A model generated the notes under the pieces. It saw only the letters and a program-made list of their open reading frames with translations. It made no database searches and was not told the origin of the DNA. A DNA stretch of 64,000 nt from [Phialemoniopsis] sp. UDSM-2020 (taxonomy: Eukaryota; Ascomycota; Sordariomycetes; Thyridiales; Thyridiaceae). Numbering within the stretch: position 1 is the first letter of the stretch; every line of letters begins with the position of its first letter. This document shows, piece after piece, positions 57,908-61,354 of this stretch. The position numbers and the translations under genes were made by a program. The stretch is from the NCBI GenBank assembly GCA_018873225.1, contig JAEILZ010000009.1:2409501-2473500 (forward strand), given 5' to 3'.

Positions 57908-59183
57908 GGCTGGAATAAGGTTGGCATGTGGGTGTGTACGTTCCAGTCGCTCGGGACGCTTGCCATGTGGCAACCCCAGTATACTTGTATCCTTGCATCA
58001 TTACACATCGAGACTCTTGCCAGCCGGTACCGGTGGACGATCGAGCTTAGCGGGTGCGAAAGACAAAAAAACAGGGCTAGAAATTAGGTATCCTGCGTTT
58101 CTTCGCGCAACCTCTCCGAAGAGACCGAGTCGATAACAAAGTTGGCATTGGCGCTGAGCGCTAACAACGAGAGACAGCACGCTTGGCTACAAATGGCCCT
58201 AGAAGCTCTCAATTGCGGGCAACACGATCCACATCTAAGGTCGTCGTGAGAGATAAGGAAGATAGCAAGATAACGGGCGAAGCAGAAAGCTGCACTATGT
58301 GGAGATATCATGGCTTGGCAAGCGACGCCGGAGGTTTGGCGACGAAGCGAAAAGATACGGAACTTATTCGACATTCAGATCTAGGTGAATATCATATCTC
58401 GAAGGCTGTCAGAGTCCGCCCTCAAAAGGCCCGGCCGTTCTTTAGCGGGGACGGGCTCCGGCCGGTACGGGGCTCGGCGGCAGGACGGCACTCCAGCAGT
58501 GGGGCTTGGTTCCGGACATGGTCAAATTGACGTGATGCGCGACTTGACACGCAACGCAGACAACAAACAAAGATACTAGCCATGAAACGCTTGGGTCCAA
58601 TCGGTCATTCGGGAACATCTCCTCACTTTTGTGTGTGTCCAGCTGGCTGTTGGGTTCTACGTGCATTTTTCATGTCGGGACCGAAGGCCCAATGGAACAG
58701 GGCGGTGCTGCTTGCAAATGGGGCGCCTGCAACTGATCCCGGTCAAGTGGCAGATGCGCATTAGAAGCCCCTCCCAGCGATTCCATGGGTGTAGAACACA
58801 AGACCTGAGACCATACTTCACAAGAAAAGCAAGAGAAAGAGAAATCAACAAGATTTAGAGAGTCCGGCGGCTCCAAGTATGTTTTGACTTGATCAATTGC
58901 CTCACGAGAGGCTGTTGGTCCTCTCGATTGTTGAGCTGTCGCCGAGGTGCACGTCCGCACTCTTGGCAACTCTGACAAGCGCTGGGGAAATTCTAGCGTC
59001 GACTGACTTGCACAGCCGCCATCTGCCTTGCCATCGGCCCCTGCATGCGGAGGGGTCCCAAGATGGTAGGGCTCCTCCGACAGTATCCATCTCAAAAGCA
59101 CTGGTTGCCCGCTACATTCAGAAAGCAATCATAATGTTTTGTAGACACCTTCAAGTGAGGTCATCGCATCGCAGCCAAGCATC
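57908..59183. other. Intergenic region
   Basis: Divergent upstream region of the amidase and of the Cys/His-rich gene at 59184. Short frames only; nothing recognised. Confidence 0.5.
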
Positions 59184-60142
59184 ATGAGTGGCATGGAAAT
59201 TGCCCTCGTGGCCCTCGTCCCAGCCATCATCTCCGCCTGCGCCGACATCGCCAGCGAATACAGAGTCTGGCGCAAGCGGAAGCGTGAGCGATCGGAGCAG
59301 AAGCAGAACTTGTCGCTGCAAAAATCTCTGCGCGGGAATGGACAGGCGATACAAAGCGAGTACGACGAGGATGTCCGGCGGCTCGGGAGTGCGTTTCAGC
59401 GAGGAGATGGTGAGCACTACCCATGCATCGCCGCAATGATTCGAGATCTCATGTACTCACACATATCGCAGCCATCGCTCGTGAAGCACTAAAGGACCAT
59501 CTCATAGTCCTCCAGACAACAGTGATTTCGCTCCTCCGAGGACAGCAAGACAACCCGCTCAACCTGATCCATCCCAACCACGTCTCCCTCTCGCAGCAAT
59601 CCACAGCAACGCGCAAGAGTGTCGTCAATTCACTCGCGCAGCAGTACCAGCGCCTCGCCCAAGCCGCTCCCATCGAGCGGCCCGTCCCCGCGAGCAACGC
59701 CGTGGTCAGGCAGACTAGCAGTAATAACAACTGCCGCGGCCAGGTCGACCGCATCAACTGGGTGCTCATCGGGTGCCGCGAATGCGAGTGGCGGTGCAAC
59801 TTCAACGAGGACAACTGGGTGACCAAGGACGGCGTGCTGCTCGACCGGCAGGCCGCCTGGGACCAATTTCACTTCCAAAAGGCGCGCCCGTACTGCAGCG
59901 GGTGGAGGTGTTTTCTCTGCAGCGACGTCGAGTTCTACTCCTCAGGCGGCTTCTCGTGGTTTGAGAAGGATTATGGGCACGCAGAGAAGAGTACGAAGGA
60001 TATGCTCAAGCATCTGAAGCGGGAGCATTACTATGACGAGGTCCGAGGCGTCATACCGAAGAGCGGGACGCCGGCGAAGGATGCGTTTGATAAGGCCGAG
60101 GACTTTGTCAAGGAGATGGGGTCGGCTTTTGGACTACGATGA
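59184..60142 (+). CDS. Hypothetical Cys/His-rich protein (298 aa)
   Basis: Two exons, 59184-59409 and 59472-60142, with a 62-nt intron (GTGAGC to TCGCAG). The joined protein has 298 residues. The N-terminus MSGMEIALVALVPAIISACADIASEY is hydrophobic and may be a membrane anchor or amphipathic helix. It is followed by a basic helix (RVWRKRKRERSEQKQ). The C-terminal half contains GCRECEWRC, YCSGWRCFLCSD and HLKREHYYDEV, which resemble zinc ligands of a C2H2-like or novel zinc-binding fold, but no named domain fits. Similar anchor-plus-zinc-like proteins are common and uncharacterised in filamentous ascomycetes. It lies 730 bp upstream of the repeat-peptide gene on the same strand. No functional link can be shown. 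Confidence 0.7.
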
Positions 60143-60871
60143 AGGAGCCTAATGGATTTGATGAATTGTGTAGGCGCGAAGGCCTAGGTTCTTTGAGCCG
60201 GGTGACGAGGACGACACGAAAGCCCTGTCATCACGGACATCTTCGACAGGTAGATAGCGATGAGATAATCAACATACCCTTCGACGCAATCAACGTGAAC
60301 GATGCCCCTTGTTTCGTATGACGCAAAAACTAGCCGGACTGCATCAAAGCCACCGTACCGAATCAAAGGGGCAACAAGGTTGGGCGGTTTAGGATATGCA
60401 GTTTTGGTGTAGGCTATTCACGAGCGCGCTTCCTAGTTCAGAACCCGGTGTGATACACACTGTGACCCTCATCGTGAATAGTGTGCTCAGAGTTGCATCC
60501 CATAGTCCAATCGCGAAGTGCGTGGGCTTTCTGCAGCCTCGTCTTTGGAAAGAGATCTGCAGCATCGGGGCTACCGTGTTTCGCATAGGCTACACCATGG
60601 CCGCCACTCCCTTTGATATCGCACCCACTGGGTGGGCCTCCTATGAGACCAAGTAGCCTAACGAGATATCAATTTGGACACTTGAGCAAGTAGAGATTGC
60701 AAAGTATTGCCTACTTACGCTTGCAATAACGCATAGCAGTAAGACTACTATAAAACAAGACTCTGCTTTCCCATCTCATGACCAAGAAGCGAAGTTGTCT
60801 TCTTCTCAACAAGCAACTCTATCTATCAACCTTAAGTGAGCTACACTCATTCATCTTCAGGATACTTCAAC
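60143..60871. promoter_or_regulatory. Upstream region of the repeat-peptide gene
   Basis: No protein gene is supported. A good TATA box lies at 60749-60755, and a C/T/A-rich leader precedes the ATG at 60872. Confidence 0.5.
60749..60755 (+). promoter_or_regulatory. TATA box of the repeat-peptide gene
   Basis: TATAAAA, 117 bp upstream of the chosen ATG. This fits a strongly or conditionally expressed gene with a leader of roughly 80-90 nt. Confidence 0.5.
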
Positions 60872-61354
60872 ATGCGCTTCGGTAGACTGTCTATCAGATC
60901 CCTAGCCATGCCCCTTGTCTCAGTTCTGGCTGCTCCCGTGGCATCCGATGAGATTCAGGCTAGGGACGACGCAGGTACGTCTTCTTTCTTACTACAGATC
61001 CCTACGAGCGACAACATTAAGACGTCCAGGCTAACTGATGGTTCCTCTATAGTCAAGAGCGGCATCCACATCCTACCCTCTTGGAAAGCCCACACGAGAG
61101 AGTCGGCCGATGAGGAGAAGGGTATCAAGGTCCTCCCTTCATGGAACAGAAACACTGCCGAGGAAGAACACCACTTCAAGGTTCTTCCGTCGTGGAAGCG
61201 AGGGACTACGGAAGCAGAACACGGCATCAAGGTCCTTCCATCATGGAGGCGCGAGGAAGCTGGGGAAGAGCATCACGTCAAGGTCTTACCTTCCTGGAAG
61301 AGGGATGAGGCTGACGAGACGCCTGATGTGCACATACTGCCCTCGTGGAAGTAA
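60872..61354 (+). CDS. Secreted repeat-peptide precursor with Kex2-type sites (134 aa)
   Basis: Two exons, 60872-60974 and 61053-61354. The 78-nt intron (GTACGT, GCTAAC branch, TATAG) is a multiple of three and stop-free, so the unspliced frame is also open. The start MRFGRLSIRSLAMPLVSVLA gives a signal peptide ending near APVAS (residue 25). Six octapeptides follow at residues 39-46, 59-66, 76-83, 93-100, 110-117 and 127-134: IHILPSWK, IKVLPSWN, FKVLPSWK, IKVLPSWR, VKVLPSWK, VHILPSWK. Periods are 20, 17, 17, 17 and 17 residues. KR, RR and KR follow copies 3, 4 and 5. Spacers are acidic with X-Ala pairs (EEAGEE, DEADE) like Ste13-trimmed pheromone spacers. This is the layout of an alpha-pheromone or kexin-processed peptide precursor, with expected peptides ending LPSW. 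The core matches no pheromone known to me. Confidence 0.85.
   Translation: MRFGRLSIRSLAMPLVSVLAAPVASDEIQARDDAGTSSFLLQIPTSDNIKTSRLTDGSSIVKSGIHILPSWKAHTRESADEEKGIKVLPSWNRNTAEEEHHFKVLPSWKRGTTEAEHGIKVLPSWRREEAGEEHHVKVLPSWKRDEADETPDVHILPSWK

Follow-up and report, generated by a model that had tools for sequence, protein, structure and literature searches.

Fungi make many short secreted peptides by cutting repeat-bearing precursors. Kex2-processed repeat proteins (KEPs) are an established class of such precursors (PMC6339444, PMC7329392), and peptides derived from them are common in fungi, few having known products or roles (PMC9769878); what is taken here from these papers and from PMC2515848 refers to the parts of each that were available. 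The KEP types G-5, G-7 and G-8 of PMC7329392 include Phialemoniopsis, the former genus name of Thyridium curvatum. Some products have been seen directly by mass spectrometry in the mushroom Coprinopsis cinerea. KEP 490115, expressed heterologously in Pichia, yields QMRPPSW and QYKAPSW, and native culture fluid contains GPPAPSW and DDDPEGPPAPSW from KEP 447393 (PMC9769878). Because knockout of six Coprinopsis KEP genes, including 490115, gave no detectable axenic phenotype, membership of the class does not imply a signalling role, and the authors favour a role of KEPs in biotic interactions (PMC9769878). Ustilago Rep1 and Candida Ece1 are Kex2-cut repeat precursors that release linear peptides (PMC2515848, PMC9769878), as the precursor described here is predicted to do. 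Two further kinds of precursor resemble it: Sordariomycete alpha-pheromone precursors, which carry Trp-ended repeats followed by a basic residue and freely varying spacers, and dikaritin/UstYa-type RiPP precursors, which are secreted and carry Kex2-delimited repeats.

We compare with these systems a gene of Phialemoniopsis sp. UDSM-2020 (genome 44.18 Mb, 11 contigs). It lies in a stretch of 64,000 nucleotides that was analysed as a whole (the window, C11:2409501-2473500). A reading of the letters by themselves (the sequence-only reading) had proposed an undescribed peptide precursor here, either pheromone-like or processed by a kexin. The kexin-type repeat precursor holds up under the comparison; the mating pheromone and the Ste13-trimmed peptide do not.

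Gene structure

The sequence and its spliced translation give a two-exon gene at 60872-60974 plus 61053-61354 (+ strand), with its ATG at 60872 and a product of 134 residues. Its features, in window positions, are as follows.

60749..60754, + strand: TATAAA, presumably a TATA-box-like element, about 120 bases 5' of the ATG (read directly)
60872..60974, + strand: exon 1, putative signal-peptide region MRFGRLSIRSLAMPLVSVLAAPVAS and start of the pro-region
60975..61052, + strand: predicted intron, 78 nt, phase 1, with GTACGT donor, GCTAAC branch-like site and TAG acceptor
61053..61354, + strand: exon 2, six LPSW units, stop TAA at 61352-61354
61064..61087, + strand: copy 1, IHILPSWK, no dibasic site (WKA)
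61124..61147, + strand: copy 2, IKVLPSWN, then a single R (WNR), no dibasic site
61175..61198, + strand: copy 3, FKVLPSWK, KR site
61226..61249, + strand: copy 4, IKVLPSWR, RR site
61277..61300, + strand: copy 5, VKVLPSWK, KR site
61328..61351, + strand: copy 6, VHILPSWK, stop codon right after W-K

Splicing of the 78-nt intron is predicted from GTACGT, GCTAAC and TAG, which we take to be good intron signals. No stop codon forces it: the length of the intron is divisible by three and its reading frame is free of stops, so a retained intron would insert 26 residues between pro-region and repeats. Residues 11-24 are hydrophobic (mean hydropathy 2.08). Hydropathy is the one line of support for the signal peptide, and the precursor, previously called secreted, is here regarded as putatively secreted. 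The protein contains neither Tyr nor Cys. A genome-wide search finds the gene in a single copy, with no paralogues in its own genome.

An old repeat array with a conserved peptide

LPSW occurs six times, beginning at residues 42, 62, 79, 96, 113 and 130 and so at spacings of 20, 17, 17, 17 and 17 residues, in agreement with the periods of 17-20 first described. The repeats of Rep1 and Ece1 are longer. When the residues following the assumed signal peptide were shuffled 20000 times, no shuffle contained LPSW more than once (0/20000). Across 114 kb in six frames, every other open stretch of at least 60 aa repeats any 4-mer at most three times, against six for LPSW, where the 4-mers counted have at least three different residues and copies lie at least eight residues apart. 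These results confirm the six-copy LPSW repeat precursor gene as an observation.

The codons of the core vary between copies while its amino acids do not, as had been noted for Leu (CTA, CTC, CTT, CTT, TTA, CTG), Pro (CCC, CCT, CCG, CCA, CCT, CCC) and Ser (TCT, TCA, TCG, TCA, TCC, TCG). Comparison of the copies gives 41.0 synonymous differences at 45.8 sites in the LPSW codons (pS 0.89), against a pN of 0.022. The wider IKVLPSW core has a pN of 0.167. In the spacer at -13 to -4, pN reaches 0.38 among copies 2-6, or 0.47 with all six, a figure that includes copy 1, which is out of register from its 20-residue spacing. Over the whole unit, with chosen bounds, mean amino-acid identity between copies is 0.50 and pS is 0.76. 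Saturated synonymous change around a fixed core means that the array is old and that the peptide, not the DNA, has been kept. The contrast between core and spacer bears out the earlier claim of selection on the peptide, and the pattern points to long selection. That the ORF is a non-functional repeat, arisen by chance or in decay, is accordingly hard to credit and, in our judgement, extremely improbable: this would suit a gene for which no homologue at E<=1 was found among 592 candidates, and it is opposed by the saturated synonymous change with a fixed core, which indicates long peptide selection.

The dibasic sites are also placed non-randomly. Behind the assumed signal peptide there are three, KR, RR and KR, and all three (3/3) directly follow LPSW, at copies 3, 4 and 5 (permutation P 0.00025), exactly as the sequence-only reading had it. 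A basic residue follows five of the six copies (P 0.001). This placement bears on the possibility that the product stays uncut, as an effector, a cell-wall or adhesion protein or a surface material, with LPSW as a binding or aggregation motif and the basic residues not serving as cleavage sites. The fixed 17-residue period of copies 2-6 and the non-dibasic ends of copies 1 and 2 (WKA and WNR) would fit an uncut protein, and [IFV]K[VI]L, with its alternating hydrophobic residues, might form paired beta strands. A single-sequence structure model of the intron-retained reading, made with no alignment, places short strands at copies 3 to 6 at very low confidence. The same model contains no confident fold (mean pLDDT 36.2) and is weak evidence in agreement with an unfolded propeptide. 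Against an uncut protein stand this lack of a confident predicted fold, the position of every dibasic site at a repeat end, the stop codon right after W-K of the last copy, and the lack of a Pfam match above cut-off or a PDB sequence match. An uncut secreted repeat protein is therefore considered unlikely, with some real weight left to it.

Predicted processing and products

The genome contains a Kex2-type gene, seen as one P-domain match on C10 with an S8 domain in adjoining frames. In silico Kex2/Kex1 digestion of the precursor gives three peptides of exactly 15 residues, GTTEAEHGIKVLPSW, EEAGEEHHVKVLPSW and DEADETPDVHILPSW, all ending in LPSW, and leaves a 57-residue N-terminal piece with three LPSW copies. 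The last of the predicted 15-mers, at the stop codon, has one Lys to remove. Trp-ended products after removal of basic residues, as anticipated, are thus predicted by the digestion.

With the P4-P1 matrix of PMC2515848, the score is high for W at P3 (0.88) and low for S at P4 (0.17), and each of the three sites comes out at 0.075. Six of the seven KR/RR sites in the organism's alpha-pheromone precursor score higher than this, and the seventh (0.022) lower. Kex2 also recognises negative residues at P1', P2' and P4' (PMC2515848). The residues that follow the three sites are GTTE, EEAG and DEAD, with acid at P1' and P2' in two of the three and at P4' in the third. The spacers had been likened to acidic X-Ala targets of Ste13, a likeness that fails on inspection: the fragments start with GT, EE and DE, and because XA or XP follows 0/3 of the Kex2 sites, the Ste13 signature as used in the available part of PMC6339444 is absent.

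The precursor resembles KEPs in being short, in its tandem near-identical peptides ending at KR/RR sites and in having no Pfam domain above cut-off; it differs in giving four Kex2 fragments only from six repeats. One published definition asks for at least four fragments from KR/RR cutting, of which at least three are similar (PMC6339444). Cutting here gives four fragments, and 4/4 end in LPSW after trimming, as judged by reading and without that paper's FIMO step; when the C-terminal fragment is set aside as in PMC6339444, 3/3 do. A second definition asks for at least three tandem repeats, each of at least 8 aa and each between Kex2 sites (PMC7329392). Two fragments have dibasic sites on both sides and two more on one side, which makes the precursor borderline for that pipeline. 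Against a KEP speak also the low site scores and the presence of a dibasic site behind only three of the six copies, with one more copy ending at the stop. The LPSW core is not among the conserved motifs named in the available part of PMC6339444. Most likely, then, the architecture is that of an already described class and the sequence is a new member of it. The earlier label "undescribed" is apt for the LPSW sequence, to judge from the searches below, and not for the architecture, since KEPs have been described (PMC6339444, PMC7329392).

We consider it probable that the gene encodes a KEP from which linear, unmodified, Trp-ended peptides are released to act outside the cell. The precursor would enter the secretory pathway through its N-terminal signal, Golgi Kex2 would cut after KR, RR and KR, and Kex1 would trim the basic residues to leave the linear 15-residue peptides. 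Single arginines may allow further cutting of the 57-residue N-terminal piece. The active part would be the conserved C-terminal half, [IFV][KH][VI]LPSW, with the acidic half as spacer. The unmodified peptides would then be secreted, as a self-signal or for action on neighbouring organisms.

The closest measured parallels to these predicted products are the Coprinopsis KEP 490115 and 447393 peptides, which likewise end in PSW. DDDPEGPPAPSW of KEP 447393 also has an acidic N-terminal half similar to that of the LPSW 15-mers. The two 447393 peptides come from a non-repetitive C-terminus, whereas LPSW comes from repeats; KEP 490115 has Ste13 motifs, whereas the LPSW precursor has none; and Coprinopsis is a basidiomycete (PMC9769878, as far as available). 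Because only the last three residues are common, the resemblance appears to be one of product type and not a shown homology. A role in biotic interactions seems as likely for the LPSW peptides as self-signalling. It is a bold and improbable extension that LPSW is a non-mating ascomycete peptide hormone and that the xPSW end marks a Dikarya-wide signal class with a related receptor, instead of a chance agreement at three positions.

Relation to mating pheromones

The true alpha-pheromone gene, whose search elsewhere in the genome had been suggested, lies at C1:7422262-7422768 (minus strand) and carries four copies of GWCPIRGQPCW. STE2 is also present on C1. Some 10 kb away from the pheromone gene, at C1:7410950-7412071, is a DPPIV_N (Ste13-type) gene; enzymes of this type trim the alpha-pheromone product. 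The text search of the literature returned no match for WCPIRGQPCW.

An alternative is that the LPSW precursor supplies a further mating pheromone, sensed by STE2 or by some other receptor. Its peptides end in Trp, and its spacers are free (pN 0.38-0.47), as they are in the true pheromone precursor (spacer pN 0.66). Existence of the canonical gene and STE2 elsewhere in the genome speaks against such a role, as do the lack of Cys (hence of a Cys pair), of GQ and of XA/XP behind any of the three Kex2 sites; the earlier remark that the core lacks the WC..GQ.CW pattern is correct. A second pheromone is therefore highly unlikely, and the precursor is not supported as the organism's own mating pheromone. 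Pheromone ancestry of the core was considered separately and rejected: the W-anchored likeness to WCPIRGQPCW, the remaining point in favour of a pheromone, is weak, with a shuffle P of 0.02-0.12 over 18 uncorrected tests.

UstYa-linked precursors in the same genome

UstYa genes lie within 15 genes of 22% of KEPs and are 3.09 genes away on average (PMC7329392). The genome studied here has 34 UstYa matches (exon pieces), 31 of them over cut-off. The one nearest to the LPSW gene, at C11:2569939, is 99 kb downstream, an estimated 27 or so genes away if one gene is taken to occupy 3.7 kb, and the only other matches on C11 are about 1.9 Mb upstream. By this estimate no UstYa match lies within the 15-gene distance of PMC7329392, and the lack of a UstYa gene near the precursor, first seen within the window, extends to 99 kb.

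Thirty UstYa loci with flanks of about 1.5 kb contain a repeat ORF at seven loci, which represent five genomic places. The repeats are ERQILPYKITTF, ALPQVYGAHQLK, SPDILYNNAAGWG, RPFYDGHQLAF and TDADNIWLWK; several are partial at locus ends, and the RPFYDGHQLAF ORF has no dibasic site in the part seen. Five SPDILYNNAAGWG copies stand next to several UstYa matches at C1 ~0.512-0.516 Mb (L005/L006/L028), which is likely a cyclic RiPP cluster. The other UstYa-adjacent repeat ORFs are at L002 (C9), L003 (C4), L011 (C5) and L008 (C6); L011 carries TDADNIWLWK, which is rich in Trp, and no Tyr occurs in the part seen. Four UstYa matches share about 5 kb at C8:1881109-1886362, where the flanks examined yielded no repeat precursor.

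These precursors serve as controls. With chosen unit bounds, copy identity is 0.92, 0.84, 0.98, 0.95 and 0.69 in the five UstYa-adjacent repeats, against 0.50 for LPSW, and pS is 0.48-0.78, against 0.76 in the LPSW unit. In the two of the five where spacer pN was measured it is 0.14 and 0.13, against 0.38-0.47 for LPSW. Because of this divergence of spacers and copies relative to controls from the same genome, the LPSW gene looks more as if it encoded a source of free linear peptides, with constraint mainly at the peptide end.

The same data bear on whether LPSW could instead give rise to a modified, cyclic RiPP of the UstYa type, made by enzymes whose genes lie elsewhere in the genome. The genome is rich in UstYa matches, a Trp-rich repeat ORF (TDADNIWLWK) adjoins one of them, and W occurs in 20.5% of UstYa-accompanied KEP repeats (PMC7329392), for which reason the absence of Tyr alone does not exclude this type. 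In contrast to dikaritin/UstYa-type precursors, LPSW has no near UstYa gene, no Tyr (usual there, not universal) and no conserved spacers; the 99 kb to the nearest match, the lack of Cys as well as Tyr, and the kept spacers of the two measured UstYa-linked precursors weigh against it. A UstYa-type cyclic RiPP is unlikely for this gene, and its production by enzymes encoded elsewhere very much so.

Similarity searches and genomic surroundings

As had been suggested, the spliced protein was compared with known proteomes: no homologue was found at E<=1 among 592 candidates (annotated proteins of about 74-235 aa in a collection of 5.8 billion), in a library that includes Thyridium curvatum proteins and at a size where short repeat proteins need high scores. 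Pfam and NCBIfam give no match above cut-off and PDB sequences none at E<=10. Among the papers listed, the literature search returned no LPSW peptide. IKVLPS matched only flaviviruses or virus-like particles, LPSWK matched a claudin paper, and LPSW with pheromone matched only a pig olfactory paper; KAPSW/RPPSW led to PMC9769878.

In the window, there is no Rfam match at gathering thresholds and no tRNA by tRNA scan. In the 62508 area, the product of a minus-strand neighbour gene shares 93% identity over 105 aa with a protein of Thyridium curvatum; on this one protein, the fungus is probably a Thyridium-like Sordariomycete. Pfam matched nine of 18 regional ORFs. Pfam identified an amidase, a NACHT gene and a beta-lactamase-type hydrolase upstream of the LPSW gene. 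The immediate neighbours of the LPSW gene, two ORFs on the upstream side (59145-60139) and one on the downstream side, have no Pfam match. Beyond the window end, three of five ORFs matched: a sugar/MFS transporter, a TRPY1/YVC1-type channel and an ankyrin protein. The 18 ORFs given to Pfam, a partial annotation, show no sign of a biosynthetic cluster.

Significance

The LPSW gene offers a clean case in single copy: its predicted products, the three 15-mers, are precisely defined, and its repeat array is old, with strong selection on a short Trp-ended core. Its own genome supplies internal controls in the form of the true pheromone and the UstYa-linked precursors. The PSW end that it has in common with mushroom peptides seen by mass spectrometry (PMC9769878, as far as available) is a lead, not a result. 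The gene makes the role of non-mating, unmodified KEP peptides testable.
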